Source of the DNA: Labilithrix sp.
GTDB taxonomy: Bacteria; Myxococcota_A; Polyangia; Polyangiales; Polyangiaceae
DNA length: 64,000 nt
Assembly: GCA_019637105.1 (NCBI GenBank)
Contig: JAHBWF010000003.1
Span: 1 to 64,000, forward strand
Direction of reading: 5' to 3'
Part shown: piece by piece, positions 9,012 through 62,770 of the stretch
How the letters are laid out: every line of letters begins with the position of its first letter
Position numbering within the stretch: the first letter of the stretch is position 1
Position numbers and translations under genes: made by a program
The notes under the pieces: model-generated
Seen by the model: the letters and a program-made list of their open reading frames with translations, nothing else
What the model was told of the DNA's origin: nothing
Databases searched by the model: none

Positions 9012-10823
9012 TCACGGCGAGGCGGAGAGCTCCGCGGTCACCTCCGCGTACATCGACTCGATCTCGACCTTGTACTTCTCGTTCACGACCTTGCGCTTCA
9101 CCTTCATCGTGGGCGTGAGCTCACCGCCGTCGATCGAGAACTCGGTCGGCACGACGACGAACTTCTTGATCGTCTGGACGCGCGCCAGCTTCCCGTTGAG
9201 CTCGTCGATCTGCTTCTGCAGGTGCTTGCGGAACGTGTTGCACTTCGCGGCCTCGGCGATGGTCTTCGCCGGGCTGCCCGCCGCCTCGGCCTCCGTCCGA
9301 ACGCGCTCGGGATCGAGCGAGACGAGCGCGGCGAGGTACTTCTTCCGATCGCCGACGACGACCGCCTGGCCGACGACCGGGATCGACTTGAGGTGCCCCT
9401 CGAGCACCTGCGGCGCGATGTTCTCTCCGCCCGCGGTGATGAGCAGGTCCTTCTTCCGATCGGTGATCTGGAGGAAGCCGTCCTCGTCGAGCGTCCCGAT
9501 GTCGCCGGAGTGCAGCCACCCGTCGCCGTCGAGCGCGTTCTTCGTCGCCTCGGGATCCTTCAGGTACCCCTTGAAGACGTGCGCGCCGCGCATGCACACC
9601 TCGCCGTCCTCGGCGATCTTGAGCTCGGCGCCCGGGAGGACGACGCCGCACTTGCCGGTGCGGAAGTCGTCGGGGGGCGAGTAGGTCGCCGGCCCGGTGC
9701 ACTCGCTCATCCCGTAGACCTCGAGGATCGGGATGCCGAGCGAGAGGAAGAACTCGAGCGTGTCCTTCGAGATCGGCGCGGCGCTCGTCACGCAGACCCG
9801 CGCGCGATCGAGGCCGAGGCGCTGCCGCACCTTGTCGAAGACGACCTTCTTCGCGACGGGGTAGAGGAGCGGACGCGCCTCGCCCCGCTGCTCGGCGTAA
9901 CCGGCCTGGAGCCCCACCTTGCGCGCCCACGCGGCGATCTTCTTCCGGAGCGGCGGCGACGCCGCGCCGGCGGCGACCATCTTCGCCTGGATCTTCTCCC
10001 AGACGCGCGGGACGCCGAGGAACACGGTCGGACGGACCTCCTGCAGCGCCTCGCCGAGCTTCTCGAGGCTCTCGGCGAAGTAGAGGAGCGAGCCCATCGC
10101 CATCGGCCCGTGGATCGAGAGCATCTGCTCGGCGATGTGGCTGAGCGGCAGGTAGCTGATCGACACCTCGTTCGGCCCGAAGTCGAGGGCCTTCACGATC
10201 GCCTCGGCGGTCCACACCAGGTTCGTGTGCGAGATCATCACGGCCTTCGGATCGCCCGTGGTGCCCGACGTGTAGATGAGCGTGCAGACGTCGTCCGGCT
10301 TCTGCGCCGCGACGCGCGCGTCGAGCTCGCTCTCCGGCGTCGCGTCGCCGAGCTCGAGCAGCTCGTCCCACCCGAGCACGCGGAGCCGCCCGCGCTTGCC
10401 CTCGGCCGGGCGCCCGAGCATCTGCACGACGACCTCGAGGTGCGGCATGCGCTCTTGCTCGGCGACGAACTTGTCGACCTGCGCGGCGGTGTCCGCGAAC
10501 GCGACCTTCGCCTCGCAGTGATCGGTGATGTACCGCACCTGCTCGGGCGTGTTCGTCGTGTAGATGCCCGCCGGGACGGCGCCCGCGAGGATCGCGCCGA
10601 CGTCGGCGACGAGCCACTCGGGGCTGTTGTAGCCGATGATCGAGACGCCCTTGCCCGGCGCGGCGCCGAGCCCGACGAGCGCGCGGCCGACGCGCCGCGC
10701 GTCGCGCTGGTAGGCGCTCCAGGTCGTCGTGCGCCAACCGCCGTCGCGCTTCACGCGGAGCGCCGGCCGGTCTCCGTAGCGCTTCGCCGTCTCCCCCAGG
10801 ACCTCGTGGACCATCGTCGCCAT
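9012..10823 (-). CDS. Long-chain acyl-CoA synthetase (AMP-forming)
   Basis: The 603-aa protein carries all ANL-superfamily motifs: the P-loop-like YTSGTTGDPKAV (about 175-186), YLPLSHIAEQ, the adenine-binding YGMSECTGP, WLHSGDIGTLDEDGFLQITDRKKDLL and a C-terminal catalytic-Lys region (TPTMKVKRK). It is closest by pattern to FadD15/ACSL-type long-chain enzymes with a GENIAPQ linker. It activates fatty acids to acyl-CoA in the cytoplasm or at the membrane. ATG 10823 was chosen because upstream sequence has no family similarity. It is monocistronic here; a second synthetase is at 46336. Confidence 0.9.
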   Translation of the reverse strand: MATMVHEVLGETAKRYGDRPALRVKRDGGWRTTTWSAYQRDARRVGRALVGLGAAPGKGVSIIGYNSPEWLVADVGAILAGAVPAGIYTTNTPEQVRYITDHCEAKVAFADTAAQVDKFVAEQERMPHLEVVVQMLGRPAEGKRGRLRVLGWDELLELGDATPESELDARVAAQKPDDVCTLIYTSGTTGDPKAVMISHTNLVWTAEAIVKALDFGPNEVSISYLPLSHIAEQMLSIHGPMAMGSLLYFAESLEKLGEALQEVRPTVFLGVPRVWEKIQAKMVAAGAASPPLRKKIAAWARKVGLQAGYAEQRGEARPLLYPVAKKVVFDKVRQRLGLDRARVCVTSAAPISKDTLEFFLSLGIPILEVYGMSECTGPATYSPPDDFRTGKCGVVLPGAELKIAEDGEVCMRGAHVFKGYLKDPEATKNALDGDGWLHSGDIGTLDEDGFLQITDRKKDLLITAGGENIAPQVLEGHLKSIPVVGQAVVVGDRKKYLAALVSLDPERVRTEAEAAGSPAKTIAEAAKCNTFRKHLQKQIDELNGKLARVQTIKKFVVVPTEFSIDGGELTPTMKVKRKVVNEKYKVEIESMYAEVTAELSASP

Positions 10824-56248: not shown

Positions 56249-56490
56249 CGCGGGCGGCCGCGCGGGCGGCGCGATGGCCCGGGCCTTCACTTCGGCGCCG
56301 TGAAGTGCAGCGCGCGGTGCGCTCGAAGTGCATCGCGTTGCACTCGTGCGCCGAAGCCCGCCACAAATCGTCGTGATCTTCAGCCGCCGGTCGTTGGCCC
56401 GCGCGCTGCAATACCGGTCGTCCACGAGGCCGCGAGTCGCTCTCTCCAGTCCCACCGACACGGGACCGAGAGCGAGGCCTCGAAAAGCTT

Positions 56491-56790
56491 GGCGCGATCG
56501 GTTTCTTGCAGGCGCCCGATCGCGTCAGGGGACCGCGACGAATGGTTCGTCGCGGTCACGATCTTCCGAGTGCCCTGGCGCAGCGCGCCGGGCGCTCCAG
56601 GCTTGGCGCGATCGGTTTCTTGCAGGCGCCCGATCGCGTCAGGGGGACCGCGACGAATGGTTCGTCGCGGTCACGATCTTCCGAGCGCCCTGGCGCGACG
56701 CGCCGGGCGCTCCCGTCTTGTCGCGATCGGTTTCTTGCAGGCGCCCGATCGCGCCGAGGGGCTGCGGCGAATCGGTTCGTCGCGGCCCTA
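56491..56790. repeat. Structured tandem repeats with 114-115-bp period
   Basis: Copies start at 56491, 56605 and 56720; the third is partial and diverges after about 70 bp. Each copy has two hairpins: CGCGATCGG...CCGATCGCG around TTTCTTGCAGGCG-like sequence, and CCGCGACGAA-TGG-TTCGTCGCGG. The block lies in the 760-bp gap between the L,D-transpeptidase and the TonB-C-like gene, which otherwise shows nothing coding. Confidence 0.85.
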
Positions 56791-57012
56791 CTTTTTTTGT
56801 CCACGCGGGTCGGCCGGGTGGCGCCCGCCTGCCAGGGGTTGCGTTGCGCGCAACCGGATCCTCGGAGCCCCAACCCCTCGCTCCGATCGCGCCGGCTCGC
56901 CGGACGACCAGCGAGGTTTTCACGGCGAATTTCGGACCGAGAGGCCACCCGGCGGGATCCCCGCCGATCCAGGGAGAGAACGGCGCGCCGCTTGCACCAT
57001 GACTCCGTCGTC

Positions 57013-57531
57013 ATGAGCTTCACGAGCGACTACAGCCGTGACCGGACCTCGGAAGCCCCGCTCTCGATGGACCTGTCCGACCCGATGGGCCTCCCGCCCC
57101 CGCCGCGCGGCGGGCTCGCCGGCCTCGCGGACCTCGCCCAGAAGCTCGGGATCCCGCGGTCGTGGGTCGGGATGAGCGGATACCTCGTCCCCGGCATCTT
57201 CCTCGGGCTCGTCCTCATCCTCGCGCTCAGCATCGGACGGAGCAGTGAAGCCGCGGCCGCGACCGGCCCGAACGCCGTGACCGACAACGTGGTGCGCCTG
57301 CACGCGCAGGAGATCGGCGAGTCCTGCTGGCAGGGCTACGACAAGCTCGGTCCGGCGCGGCTCACGGTCGCTCTCGAGGTCGGCATCGACGGGAAGATCC
57401 GCTACGCGGCGGCGTCCGGAGAGACCGCCGCGATGCGCAGCTGCGTCGAGCAGCACGTCAACGCGTGGGAGTTCCTCCCGCAGCAGCAGGCGCAGACGAT
57501 GGCGCTCCCGTTCGAGGTCGACCGGCGCTGA
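57013..57531 (+). CDS. Membrane-anchored TonB-C/AgmX-like protein
   Basis: The 172-aa protein has one membrane helix (MSGYLVPGIFLGLVLILALSIG) after a ~55-residue cytoplasmic part, and a periplasmic domain. ESCWQGYDKLGPARLTVALEVGIDGKIRYAAASGETAAMRSCVEQHVNAWEFLP is the pattern of the myxobacterial AgmX/PglI C-terminal (TonB-like) domain, with two Cys that probably pair. A role in envelope-spanning machinery is likely by family; the partner is unknown. Confidence 0.65.
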   Translation: MSFTSDYSRDRTSEAPLSMDLSDPMGLPPPPRGGLAGLADLAQKLGIPRSWVGMSGYLVPGIFLGLVLILALSIGRSSEAAAATGPNAVTDNVVRLHAQEIGESCWQGYDKLGPARLTVALEVGIDGKIRYAAASGETAAMRSCVEQHVNAWEFLPQQQAQTMALPFEVDRR

Positions 57532-58446: not shown

Positions 58447-60225
58447 ATGACCAACACCACGACCCCGCATCCCTCCCTCCTCGCCGAGGCGCAGAAGGGG
58501 CCGGCCGAGAAGCTGCTCGACCTGGTCCTCGGCTCGTCGGCGCACCTCTGGCACAACCGGCCCGGGCTCGACGTCGGCGGCATCTGGCACGCGAAGCGCG
58601 GCGCCAAGAAGGACGTCGCCGCGCGCGCGACGCCGGTGAAGCCCGGGCTCTTCGTCCCGGCCGCCGAGCGGCTGTACGCGCAGCTGCTCGACATCTACGA
58701 GCTGAACGCCGAGCTCATGGCGCGCTTCGCGAGCTACGCGCTGACGCAGACCGAGTGGCGCGACCTCAAGGTCGCGTGCGCGGCGCTGATGCTCGTGCAG
58801 CCGCACGCCGGACAGCCGATCAAGGACGAGGGCGGCTCCGTCGCCTTCCACGACGACGACTACCGCGCCGTCGGCGAGGCGATGGCGCTCTTCTACGAGA
58901 AGAAGAGCACCAAGATGCTCACGCCGAAGGCGGTCCTCCGCATCGCGGAGCTCCTCGAGGCCCCGGCGATCGCCGAGCTGAACCGCGTCGCCGGCTTCTC
59001 GGACCCCGGCTCGAAGAAGCCGCAGCTCGGCCGCTGGAAGCGCGCCGCGACGCGGTGGCTCGCGCTGCGCGAGGAGAACCTGCCGATGCTCCAGGGCCTC
59101 GTGAAGGCGGGGTACAAGGAGACCATCAAGAACATCGCGCGCAAGGCCGGCTACAAGCCGGAGAGCCCGGCGTTCTTCGAGATCCTCGGCTGGAAGCAGA
59201 AGCAGGCCGCCGGCGGCCACCGGCAGGTCGGTCTGTCCAACCTCACGCTGCAGAAGCGCGAGCGCTTCGACGGCCTGTCCGAGGCGGAGATCTGCGAGGC
59301 GATCGTCACGCAGAAGCTCTCGCACAAGGACGTCGTCGGCCGGCTGCCGAAGGACGTGGGGCTCACGCCGGCCATCATGGTGGCGCTGCTCCCCTCGCTC
59401 TCCGACCGTGACCTCCGCATGCTGACGCCCACGCTCGAGGAGCTGGGGCTCATGACCGAGCCCGAGATCCGCCGGCGCTGGGAGAAGGCGATCGCCGAGG
59501 CCACCGACCAGCGCGCGCTCAACATCGCGAAGAACGTCCGGAGCAAGGAGCTCCGGACGAAGCTCGAAGAGGCGAGCGACAACGCCGCGAAGAAGGCCGT
59601 GGCGGAGGCGGCGGCCGAGCGGCCCGTCGACGTCATGTTCCTCATCGACAAGTCCGGCTCGATGGAAGGCGCGATCGACAAGTCGAAGGAGGCGCTGTCG
59701 CGCATCCTCGCGGGCTTCCCCGCGGAGCACGTGCACATCGCGAGCTTCGACACGACCGGGACGGTCCTCAAGCCCAAGGCGCCCACCCGCGCGGCCGTGC
59801 AGCACATGCTCGGCGGCATCAAGGCGGGAGGCGGCACCGTCCACGCCGCGGCGCTCCGCGCCCTCCACCAGGCGGGCGTGCGCGTCGCGGCGACGCACGC
59901 GCTGATCGTCATCGTCGTCGGCGACGAAGCCGGCGAGGACGGCGGACAGCTCGCGCGCGCGTTCAAGGACTACGGCTACGACGTCGCGGCGATCGCGATG
60001 CTCGTGAACGTCTCGACCACGCGCGGAACGACCGTCCAGTCGTGCGCGCGCGCGCTCGGCGTGCCGTACAGCGAAGTGCAGATCGACCAGTTCGAGGACC
60101 CCTACCAGGTGCCTCGCGTTCTCCGCGCGCTGCTCGAAGCCCCGAAGCTGGGGCCCGGCGTCGCCGCGCAGAGCGGCTGGCTCGAGCGCGTCCTCGCGAC
60201 GCCGATCCTCACGCTGCCTTCGTAG
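58447..60225 (+). CDS. TROVE/Ro60-like VWA protein
   Basis: ATG 58447 follows GAGGGA. The 592-aa protein has a helical-repeat N-terminal part (about 1-385) and a C-terminal VWA domain with intact MIDAS (LIDKSGSM; Asp401, Ser403, Ser405). The segment LTPAIMVALLPSLSDRDLRMLTPTLEELGLMTEPEIRRR just before the VWA matches in order the Ro60 pattern (P.taLLRNL..m......... L.d...l). In Ro60 a HEAT-like TROVE ring binds misfolded and Y RNAs and packs against a VWA domain. The match is remote. It heads a plus-strand series with JAMM, Ubl-like and E1-like genes. Confidence 0.7.
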   Translation: MTNTTTPHPSLLAEAQKGPAEKLLDLVLGSSAHLWHNRPGLDVGGIWHAKRGAKKDVAARATPVKPGLFVPAAERLYAQLLDIYELNAELMARFASYALTQTEWRDLKVACAALMLVQPHAGQPIKDEGGSVAFHDDDYRAVGEAMALFYEKKSTKMLTPKAVLRIAELLEAPAIAELNRVAGFSDPGSKKPQLGRWKRAATRWLALREENLPMLQGLVKAGYKETIKNIARKAGYKPESPAFFEILGWKQKQAAGGHRQVGLSNLTLQKRERFDGLSEAEICEAIVTQKLSHKDVVGRLPKDVGLTPAIMVALLPSLSDRDLRMLTPTLEELGLMTEPEIRRRWEKAIAEATDQRALNIAKNVRSKELRTKLEEASDNAAKKAVAEAAAERPVDVMFLIDKSGSMEGAIDKSKEALSRILAGFPAEHVHIASFDTTGTVLKPKAPTRAAVQHMLGGIKAGGGTVHAAALRALHQAGVRVAATHALIVIVVGDEAGEDGGQLARAFKDYGYDVAAIAMLVNVSTTRGTTVQSCARALGVPYSEVQIDQFEDPYQVPRVLRALLEAPKLGPGVAAQSGWLERVLATPILTLPS

Positions 60226-60256
60226 ACCACCACCCCAACCCCGAGGGCTCCGGTTC

Positions 60257-61276
60257 ATGGACTACACGAAGTTCCTCGGGAAGAAGGAAGAGGCCGTCCT
60301 CGCGTACCTCGGGGGTCCCTTCGCCTACGGCAGGGACCGCCGGCTCCGCGTGGGCGAGCCTCGGCCTTCGCTCGGCTTCCATCGGTTCGAGATCGAAGGC
60401 CGCGCGGCCCGCGCGATCGGCCCCGCGGAGTCGCCCGACACGGGCGGCCTCCCGCGCGTGCGCGGGCATCACGTGCGCGGTTGGATCACGTGCGCGAGCG
60501 GCGCGAGCCCGGGACGCGCCGCGAGCCCGCGTCACGGCCGCCGCGAGGGCGACCCCGCGGCGCGGTCGCGCGTCGAGATCGTCCGGCTCCTGCCGGACGA
60601 GCAGCCGGCGCCGTTTTCGATCGTCCGCGCGCGTCGCTGGCACTCGGGCGATCTCGTCTTCGAGTCGCTCGACTTCGACGGCGAGGTCGAGGAGGCCGCG
60701 CGCCTCCGGCTCGAGAAGCTCGAGCCCCTCGGCGAGATGAAGGGCGTCCCCGCCTCGCTCCGCCTGGCGTACGGCGTGGCGCTCACGACGGCGATCGCCG
60801 CTCGGATGGGCGTCGCGCTCTCCGTTCGTGAAGCGGCCGCGGCCGGGCCGCGCGTCGCCGACGAGGGCGAGGACGCGGCGCGCGCGTTCGTCGGCGCCCT
60901 CGCCGCCCGGCGCGCCGAGGACGCGGAGCAGGCGCGCTCGCGCGCCCTCGCCCTCGATCGGGGCGCGCGCGAGCCCGTCGCCGCGCGCCGCCGCGGCGCC
61001 CCGACGCTCGACGACGCGCACCTCCGCGCCGCGCTCGCGCTCGACGGCGTCGACGCCCGGCTGCTCTCGTCGCGCCAGCTCGGCGGCGGCAACCTCGAGG
61101 TCGCGTGGGAGTTCATGGGAGAGCGCTTCATCAGCGTGATCGACGCCCTCACGCTCCAGGTCTTCGACTCGGGCGTCTGCCTCGCCGGCGCCGACGAGCT
61201 CGTCACGCTCGACAGCCTGCCCGGCGTCATCCGCGAGGCGATCCAGACCGACGCGCTCGTCATCACGCGTCGCTGA
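60257..61276 (+). CDS. Unknown protein of the Ub-like cluster (possible E2-like)
   Basis: The 339-aa protein starts 31 bp after the VWA gene. It has an N-terminal domain (about 1-150, GKKEEAVLAYLGGPFAYGRDRRLRV), an Ala/Arg-rich middle and a C-terminal alpha/beta piece: GGNLEVAWEFMGERFISVIDALTLQVFDSGVCLAGADELVTLDSLPGVIREAI. The single Cys308 in GVCL followed by a helix recalls the GxvCL...active-site region of E2 enzymes, but there is no HPN motif and the similarity may be chance. I do not recognise the family. Confidence 0.6.
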   Translation: MDYTKFLGKKEEAVLAYLGGPFAYGRDRRLRVGEPRPSLGFHRFEIEGRAARAIGPAESPDTGGLPRVRGHHVRGWITCASGASPGRAASPRHGRREGDPAARSRVEIVRLLPDEQPAPFSIVRARRWHSGDLVFESLDFDGEVEEAARLRLEKLEPLGEMKGVPASLRLAYGVALTTAIAARMGVALSVREAAAAGPRVADEGEDAARAFVGALAARRAEDAEQARSRALALDRGAREPVAARRRGAPTLDDAHLRAALALDGVDARLLSSRQLGGGNLEVAWEFMGERFISVIDALTLQVFDSGVCLAGADELVTLDSLPGVIREAIQTDALVITRR

Positions 61277-61406
61277 GGGCCGACCCCGGGGAGCGCCGCG
61301 TCGGGACGGCCGGCGCGACGATCGCGCGCGGTCCCCCTGGACAGCGCGCGTCCCGATGACGAGGTTCTCGCGACTGCGCGCTCGAGCGCGTCGCGCGGAG
61401 GCGACC

Positions 61407-61862
61407 ATGGGATCTCACCTGCGCGAAGTCTTCTTCCTCGTCGGCGAAGGCGACGTCGTCCTCTGGTCGGACGCGTCGGAGAGCCCGGTGCGCCTGCCCG
61501 ACACGCGAGCGCGCTGGGAGGCGATCTGGTCGCGCCGCGAGCGGATCGTCGAGATCGCGCACTCGCATCCGATCGGCCCGATCGCGTTCTCGCGCGAGGA
61601 CGAGACGACGATGCGCGCGCTCGTGACGGCGCTCGGTCGGCCGGTGCTCTTCTCGGTGGTCGCGCCGGACGGGATGATCCGCCGCGTCGAGCCGGTCGAC
61701 GAGCCCGGCGCCGGTGAAGATCGGCGCGCTCGGCTCGTCGAAGACGAGCCCTGGTGGACGCGCCTCCTCCGGCTCGCGTCGGGGATGCAGGAGACGTCAC
61801 GGACCACGGACCTCGCTCGCGCGGTGGCGGCGCCGAGCGAGATCGCAACGAAGGAGCAATGA
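61407..61862 (+). CDS. JAMM/JAB (Mov34/MPN) metalloprotease-like protein
   Basis: GGAGG is 5 bp before ATG 61407. The 151-aa protein has the exact JAMM signature HSHPIGPIAFSRED: His52, His54, Ser62 and Asp65 in H-x-H-x7-S-x2-D, with a candidate Glu in the first strand (LREVFFLVGEGDVVLW). These residues bind zinc in deubiquitinases such as RPN11 and in bacterial homologues next to E1- and Ubl-like genes. Its stop codon overlaps the next start (ATGA), which ties it to the small beta-grasp candidate. Confidence 0.85.
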   Translation: MGSHLREVFFLVGEGDVVLWSDASESPVRLPDTRARWEAIWSRRERIVEIAHSHPIGPIAFSREDETTMRALVTALGRPVLFSVVAPDGMIRRVEPVDEPGAGEDRRARLVEDEPWWTRLLRLASGMQETSRTTDLARAVAAPSEIATKEQ

Positions 61863-62113
61863 ACATGGCAGTCCTCAACATCACCTACAACGGTCTGTCC
61901 GCCGACTACCCGCTGGACGTCGACCGCGCGCTGAGCGACCGCGACGTCCGTCGCATCGCCGTCGAGGTCGTCCGCTCGGGCGGCCTGCGCGGCCTGGCCG
62001 CGGCGAACCTCGGCGATCGCGCGTTCGACGACTACGTCGTCGACCGGTTCCACACGCCGCAGGGCGAGCGTCGCATCTACCTGCGCCCGAAGGTCCCCTT
62101 CGGCTGCTCGTAA
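61859..62113 (+). CDS. Small beta-grasp / ubiquitin-like candidate
   Basis: ATG 61859 overlaps the JAMM stop (ATGA); ATG 61865 is 8 bp after AAGGAG and may be used. The ~84-aa protein reads as strand-strand-helix-...-strand: VLNITYNGLSADYPLDVD, a helix (SDRDVRRIAVEVVRSG), GDRAFDDYVVDRF and a final strand RRIYLRPKVPFGCS. The order and the N-terminal YNG resemble the ubiquitin-like PRTRC protein C. It ends in Gly-Cys-Ser, not Gly-Gly, so processing or a different linkage chemistry would be needed. Fold call is from pattern only. Confidence 0.55.
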   Translation: MNMAVLNITYNGLSADYPLDVDRALSDRDVRRIAVEVVRSGGLRGLAAANLGDRAFDDYVVDRFHTPQGERRIYLRPKVPFGCS

Positions 62114-62188
62114 CCACGAAGGCGTGGAGGGCGTACCTTCGCCCTCCCCCTTCCTCCTCCTCTCACCGTCGTCCCTCGAGGTGCCTTG

Positions 62189-62770
62189 ATGAAGCGTGTC
62201 GTCTTCTGTGGCGTGGGCGCGCTCGGGTCGAACGCGGTCGTCGCGTGCCGAAACCTCGACGCCGCGCTCGTCCTGATCGACTTCGACCGCGTCGAGTCGA
62301 AAAACTGCCTCTCGCAGGCCTTCGTCAAGCCGTCGGTCGGGAAGAACAAGGCCGACGCGTTGAAGCTCCAGCTTTCGAACTTCTGGGGCGTCAAGGCGGA
62401 GGCGTTCGGCGTCCGCGTCGACGAGTCCAACGTCGCGACGCTCTGCGGATCGGCGGACCTCGTCGTCGACGCGTTCGACAACGCGAAGAGCCGCCGGCTG
62501 CTCTCGGCCTGGGCGGAGAGCGCCGGCAAGCCGCTCGTCCACGCCGCGGTCTCGGCGGACGGGACGTTCGGCCTCGTCCGCTGGGACGCGCGCTTCGTCG
62601 CCGACGAGGAGCCCGCGGCGGGGGCGGCGACCTGCGAGGGCGGCGAGCACCTCCCGCTGCTCGCCGTCGTCGCCGCGACGCTCGCGCGCGCCGTGCAGGA
62701 CTTCGTCGCGCGCGGCGTGCGTCGCGACGCCATGATCGCCCTCTCGGGCGTGACCACCACCTCGGAGTAG
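62189..62770 (+). CDS. Short E1/ThiF/MoeB-like adenylating enzyme
   Basis: ATG 62189 follows GAGG at 7 bp and TTG. The 193-aa protein is a ThiF Rossmann domain: GVGALGSN (8-15), LIDFDRVESKNCLSQ (D.D.V...N; the usual Arg before Gln is Ser), GKNKADA (51-57) and LVVDAFDNAKSRR. It lacks the CxxC zinc pairs and the separate catalytic-Cys domain; Cys149 (TCEGGEHLPLL) lies where E1-like proteins often have a Cys. Size matches PRTRC ThiF-like and other minimal E1 proteins of bacterial Ubl operons. Likely activates the small beta-grasp partner. Confidence 0.8.
   Translation: MKRVVFCGVGALGSNAVVACRNLDAALVLIDFDRVESKNCLSQAFVKPSVGKNKADALKLQLSNFWGVKAEAFGVRVDESNVATLCGSADLVVDAFDNAKSRRLLSAWAESAGKPLVHAAVSADGTFGLVRWDARFVADEEPAAGAATCEGGEHLPLLAVVAATLARAVQDFVARGVRRDAMIALSGVTTTSE

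Follow-up and report, generated by a model that had tools for sequence, protein, structure and literature searches.

What does a block of five genes do when it joins a von Willebrand factor A (VWA) protein to the parts of a ubiquitin-like protein (Ubl) system? The question is raised by positions 58447-62770 of a 64,000-nucleotide stretch of contig JAHBWF010000003.1 (hereafter the window) from Labilithrix sp., a member of the Myxococcota with a genome of 8.45 Mb. Genes for a VWA protein, a protein here called B, a JAMM/JAB metallopeptidase, a Ubl and a ThiF-type E1 run consecutively there on the plus strand. An initial annotation, made from the letters of the window, had proposed this order and these limits, which the open reading frames and their translations bear out, and had read the block as a Ubl cassette headed by a TROVE/Ro60-like protein. 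In our best reading, the cassette is a genuine set of Ubl-type genes with good conservation, distinct from the PRTRC systems and without a supported Ro60 heading. It probably encodes a complete and reversible Ubl pathway exchanged between huge phages and Myxococcota, with a substrate likely related to tRNA or translation, although we hold this view with appreciable reserve.

The core of JAMM, Ubl and E1 proposed earlier is well supported by family models, invariant residues and recurrence elsewhere. Among the five proteins Pfam names VWA, Prok-JAB and ThiF, and no family for the B and Ubl proteins of the window. The JAB protein is over the Prok-JAB cut-off (2.2e-6), and the exact JAMM motif attributed to it is present as HSHPIGPIAFSRED, matching HxHx7SxxD; the family alignment prefers the in-frame ATG at 61407 as its start. 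Its residues E24, H69, H71, S79 and D82 occur in 71/71 rows (near-duplicate viral rows are kept in all residue counts given here). The last gene is, as had been annotated, a minimal ThiF/E1 (Pfam ThiF, 3.8e-20), with the motifs GxGALGS and DxxDN and, after the ATP-binding core, a catalytic-type Cys149 in ATCEGG that is kept in 63/63 rows. The small protein had also been described correctly in its length and in the overlap of its start with the JAB stop as ATGA; F81 and G82 of its PFG motif are found in all 69 rows. Pfam over 18 Ubl members gave weak scattered matches only (best 0.036), and a PDB sequence-profile search with the Ubl gave nothing meaningful. In the VWA protein, numbered from the residue after Met, the metal ion-dependent adhesion site (MIDAS) pattern is intact (DKSGSM, T463, D492), and D400, S402, S404, T463 and D492, together with H32, H35 and R37, are kept in 62/62 rows.

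Table 1. Genes of the cassette, with their positions in the window.
Product	Position	Strand	Features
VWA protein, 592 aa including Met	58447-60225	+	Pfam VWA; N-terminal part of about 390 aa, then C-terminal VWA
B protein, 339 aa	60257-61276	+	AlphaFold model; invariant Cys308
JAMM/JAB metallopeptidase, 168 aa	61356-61862	+	Prok-JAB over cut-off
Ubl, 84 aa, ending RPKVPFG-CS	61859-62113	+	F81 and G82 invariant
Minimal ThiF/E1, 193 aa	62189-62770	+	Pfam ThiF; Cys149 in ATCEGG

The initial annotation had called for a survey of the neighbourhood in other genomes, and the set does recur, in the same phylum, in a metagenome-assembled genome (MAG) of the Terriglobia and on viral contigs. The full order VWA-B-JAB-Ubl-ThiF is found in Labilithrix, in one Polyangiaceae MAG and in the Terriglobia MAG, and the group of the window forms one starred branch of the VWA tree. 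A second, divergent set (clade 2) is present in other genomes of the phylum of the window with a more variable arrangement: loci L084 and L087 match the full set and its order, L080, L082 and L085 are without JAB, and in L081 (genome G344, 10109-10782) the Ubl precedes the JAB, unlike in the other complete sets seen. Among 329 genomes of this phylum, the VWA protein was found in 14 (E values up to 1e-20), the Ubl in 13 (up to 1e-6) and both in 12. The Ubl occurs in one of 347 genomes of the phylum of the Terriglobia MAG, which is that MAG itself. Searched directly, 13 of 17 genomes contain the Ubl; it was not found in G001, G017, G155 and G368, nor, in a separate search, in G384, and a Ubl search of plasmids gave no match. 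Myxococcus and Archangium had at one point been taken to be without Ubl and E1, which proved wrong: in both, Ubl-ThiF forms a separate block approximately 6-7 kb downstream of VWA-B-JAB, with unrelated genes between. Around the cassette, flanking PPIase, FHA-GGDEF and HNH genes were named by eye. Relatives of the first two occur at 5 of 12 loci searched, all from the genus of the window, and thus the cassette has a stable neighbourhood there. Separately, genome G343 (L126) has JAB-Ubl-ThiF without VWA or B behind an HNH-like gene, and its relative L078 has VWA and B in between; the first two cassette genes appear to have been deleted from the G343 locus.

One functional link within the cassette probably joins the JAB and the end of the Ubl. 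The residues after the glycine number 0-12 in the 18 Ubls first aligned, all of which have PFG, and mostly 0-10 in the viral Ubls, with 32-61 in six. We predict that the glycine is the mature C-terminus and that the CS of the window's Ubl is a removable tail. A comparison of 32 bacterial loci with both a VWA row and a Ubl (others, such as G343 with JAB and tail, fall outside it) gave 25 with an intact JAB and a tail, two with an intact JAB and no tail (G344, G251) and none with a tail in the absence of JAB. In all five loci where the JAB is absent (G007, G363, G315, G319) or internally deleted (G021), the Ubl ends at the glycine. A genome-wide search of the former four, at completeness of 83, 98, 95 and 65% respectively, found no JAB. 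Fisher's test gives 1.0e-4 uncorrected for relatedness; by parsimony there are five JAB changes and four tail changes, so that independent events are few, and of four independent pairs on starred branches three agree and one shows no difference (p 0.25). Because the tail is missing where the JAB is lost or broken and present in 25 of the 27 loci that keep it, the JAB probably serves to mature the Ubl by processing its tail, if it has one. Several viral Ubls argue against this role: among the 51 that are accompanied by a JAB, eight stop exactly at the glycine and six extend 32-61 residues beyond it, and the Ubl of L135 has a one-residue tail with no JAB in the locus fetched. Presumably the JAB has a second role besides tail maturation, namely deconjugation. 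We also observed in G740 (L125:1501-1752) a second, divergent Ubl paralogue ending in PFAGPRSA; its 3.2-kb locus contains no E1 or JAB match.

Protein B had been listed as unknown in the initial annotation. It still has no Pfam family, since a scan over all 19 B members gave scattered weak matches only (best 0.022), and PDB sequence profiles of B and of its C-terminal domain gave no convincing match; what can now be proposed is its fold. The AlphaFold model (mean pLDDT 85.4) predicts long helices together with OB-like folds (approximately residues 8-141) and, at approximately 247-339, a C-terminal E2/RWD-like domain, whose predicted topology is a helix (251-264), a four-strand meander (268-304), Cys308 and a further helix (321-331). 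A structure search with predicted B returned weak RWD and OB matches; E2/UBC chains proper are absent among the PDB matches listed for it, which we count neither for nor against. Cys308 lies in the motif GVCL, of which G306, C308 and L309 are kept in 67/67 rows (19 bacterial of clade 1 and 48 viral, clade-2 bacterial rows being excluded); this unfiltered count was used for the cysteine because a 26-row alignment, A8, had been selected by its GxCL motif. Among the 82 open frames for B detected by hidden Markov model, a number that includes overlapping loci, 78 have the cysteine motif. The four frames without it comprise two that are one short gene of G155 and two that run off contig ends. In G155, a MAG 89% complete in which neither Ubl nor JAB was found, the B that follows the VWA gene ends before the C-terminal domain; this one case divides B into two parts, one on the side of VWA and one on the side of the Ubl. 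From the predicted topology, and with weak structural matches, B would be more aptly described as an E2/RWD-like carrier preceded by OB-like folds than as unknown. Plasmids of Kovacikia and Dolichospermum (L096:5070-6567, L097:2671-4352) also carry a B-like protein, with SSGICLSG, directly before ThiF; no VWA, JAB or Ubl was noticed alongside these genes.

When IMG/VR was searched with the Ubl alignment, 52 loci were recovered; their contigs measure 5-536 kb, and 26 are larger than 200 kb. The Ubl is present at these loci by construction, and 42 of the 52 have the full cassette with its gene order kept and on a single strand; all 49 B proteins detected there carry the cysteine motif. That the contigs are of phage origin rests on their IMG/VR class, their tRNA content, the missing 16S and the phage Rctr197k. 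No 16S match was found in the 19 viral contigs tested, by a check that itself detected 16S in no more than 9 of 14 known genomes; terminase PF03237 was matched in three of the 19, two of them over the cut-off. Rctr197k, a named member of the Caudoviricetes, was the only match among 50,697 named phage records when the VWA protein of one viral locus was used as query; the match is annotated as a misc_feature, not as a coding sequence, and a second gene is annotated as ThiF-like. The 25-kb stretch that holds both (L187:7216-24524) contains 41 annotated tRNA genes. In the VWA tree the clade-2 bacterial copies interleave with viral ones (L080 beside L144, for example), which points to repeated exchange.

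Genes for tRNAs are frequent around the viral cassettes in general. After removal of six near duplicates, 37 of 46 viral loci have a tRNA gene inside the fetched locus. The whole stretch from VWA to ThiF is visible in 36 loci. Of these, with distances taken from stop-to-stop frames, 20 have a tRNA no more than 1204 bp upstream of the VWA frame, 29 have one 40-1600 bp downstream of ThiF, and only one has a tRNA within the VWA-ThiF span. We compared this proximity with chance on 19 contigs larger than 230 kb, out of the 26 above 200 kb; four near duplicates were left out, as were L153, L157 and L170 for no special reason. Among the 150 tRNA matches listed of 758, a tRNA lies within 5.1 kb of the locus centre in 13 of the 19 contigs, against 1.65 expected for random places; none of 20,000 random draws gave as many as 13. 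The RNA link put forward in the initial annotation gains indirect support from the tRNA genes near viral cassettes, which the letters of the window could not show. The presence of the cassette on very large viral contigs, often among tRNA genes, points to a tagging system, so far undescribed, that is connected with RNA or translation. Two viral loci have tmRNA genes beside the cassette in addition to tRNAs (L138:8080-8458, L153:8564-8921).

From what is observed, that is, gene set and order, invariance, loss patterns and the viral and tRNA context, we infer the following chemical steps and target. The JAB would cut the Ubl back to the PFG glycine where a tail exists, as the gene-loss patterns indicate. 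The E1 would then adenylate this glycine, and may hold the Ubl on Cys149, by analogy with its family. The C-terminal domain of B, to judge from the invariance of Cys308 and the predicted topology, would take the Ubl on this cysteine as an E2-like carrier, and the OB-like part of B and the VWA protein, as gene order hints, may hold or choose the substrate. The JAB would additionally take the tag off, and the cassette as a whole would have been exchanged between huge phages and Myxococcota. Since it is kept among tRNA genes on viral contigs, the likeliest substrate belongs to tRNA biology or translation, as a protein or ribonucleoprotein, although its identity is a guess. More tentatively still, huge phages and some bacteria may share a new Ubl system, with a VWA platform and an OB-fold E2-like protein, which tags a tRNA or translation target, so that phages could protect or retool translation in infection, with repeated uptake by Myxococcota. 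If the proposed pathway is real, very large phages, as well as named myxobacterial strains (Myxococcus, Archangium), would possess a complete Ubl cascade, including two protein families, B and Ubl, for which Pfam gave no notable match. Whether phages tag proteins reversibly and the origins of E2-type carriers would become testable in a laboratory organism, and the pattern of JAB and tail loss offers a ready genetic prediction.

The main rival to a conjugation relay is a sulfur-carrier role, in which the E1 and the small protein would work like ThiF-ThiS or MoeB-MoaD, with a glycine thiocarboxylate serving sulfur transfer, for example to tRNA, and with the JAB opening the carrier from its precursor. 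The nearest models of the E1 are of ThiF/MoeB type, the viral copies are surrounded by tRNA genes, and tRNA thiolation by the Ubl-type carrier Urm1 is reported in the accessible part of PMC5349211. However, none of the five genes of the cassette has a rhodanese or sulfurtransferase match, and the invariant cysteine of B lies in a predicted E2/RWD-like domain of a protein with no notable Pfam match. Moreover, to our knowledge a VWA protein plays no role in sulfur carriers. We therefore regard this role as unlikely, if worth keeping in mind.

Could the cassette instead be a PRTRC-type system, which we take to be operon type 6d, that lost ParB and gained a VWA gene? Type 6d is the nearest among the operons with Ubl, JAB, E1 and E2-like genes in the part consulted of Iyer et al. 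2006 (PMC1779556), where it has the same functional set if B is read as E2-like: a stand-alone Ubl with a C-terminal glycine, a JAB, a ThiF-type E1 and an E2-like protein in which a Cys is conserved and the classical E2 His is missing. The term von Willebrand is absent from the text of PMC1779556. NCBIfam matches of the E1 are of ThiF/MoeB type and under cut-off, including a weak one to PRTRC_ThiF (2.9e-8, 33 bits against a cut-off of 144.75). In contrast to PRTRC, the cassette is headed by a VWA gene and has predicted OB-like folds before the E2-like part of B, and none of its five proteins reaches the cut-off of a PRTRC model. No PRTRC ParB was matched among the five with these models, the neighbours being read by eye only, and the one reference plasmid examined (L095), compared by eye, has other genes around ParB and ThiF. 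The PRTRC-type reading was already disfavoured, and we consider it improbable.

Other published systems share parts of this layout. Kaur et al. 2020 (PMC7159879) report FtsH ternary vWA-MoxR systems that include Ubl conjugation. These resemble the cassette in having a vWA gene with Ubl, E2, E1 and JAB, in multicellular bacteria, and differ in their MoxR, FtsH, RING E3, EAD1 and effector genes. None of the latter was noticed by eye, without models, in the part of the cassette-neighbour translations that was read. A survey of jumbo phages (PMC7824862) mentions, in its accessible part, TROVE and MoxR-vWA pairs, and a term search of that part gave no occurrence of JAB, Ubl or ThiF. The portion available of PMC10910872 deals with systems associated with tRNA arrays, of which some include nucleases; ubiquitin is not named there. 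The initial annotation knew of no description of this exact set, and we found no published one, in a literature search that reached few subscription papers.

In Ro60, an N-terminal part precedes a VWA domain. The first protein of the cassette resembles Ro60/Rsr in overall length and in having a long N-terminal part, with a VWA domain that contains a MIDAS at the C-terminus, and the initial annotation took it for TROVE-like; it could then be a diverged TROVE-VWA ring, tagged or untagged by the Ubl in an RNA quality-control particle. The tRNA genes next to the viral copies and the OB-like folds of B would suit RNA, and the full-length profile aligns colinearly with TROVE proteins from genomes of the family, at a probability of only 38%. 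However, TROVE homology is undetectable by sequence: the N-terminal part alone scores 21.9 against TROVE, below the best of 40 block shuffles (23.7), and 20.6 with viral rows added, below the best of 60 (25.8). Pfam shows VWA families only, with no TROVE match in this protein, and in a PDB profile search only VWA domains were convincing and no Ro60 was among the matches. PF05731 detects TROVE genes in 16 of 60 genomes sampled from the family of the window, and none in the window's own genome, and an Rfam scan of 50-64 kb gave no Y RNA among nine matches, all under gathering scores. The TROVE assignment was thus dropped as unsupported, only the VWA domain of this protein being secure, and a Ro60-like particle seems a remote prospect.

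Finally, the initial annotation had suggested defence as one possible role. Bil (BilA-D) and the Cap2/Cap3 of type II CBASS are bacterial Ubl-type conjugation systems with E1, E2 and JAMM parts, as is proposed for the cassette. PADLOC gave E1-domain matches and a weak JAB match (0.039) for the cassette and was blank for VWA, B and Ubl; the cassette is distinguished from Bil and CBASS on this PADLOC result. The present cassette, unlike those systems, itself sits on viral contigs. We found no link to defence, and in Labilithrix-type genomes the cassette occupies a conserved site. Two further Prok-JAB matches lie on other contigs of the genome of the window (L001, L003), one of them stronger than the JAB of the cassette. 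Upstream, translations of open reading frames at 56380-57016 of the window contain the repeated peptide ARSVSCRRPIASG and variants of it, seemingly with a short DNA repeat at the same place.

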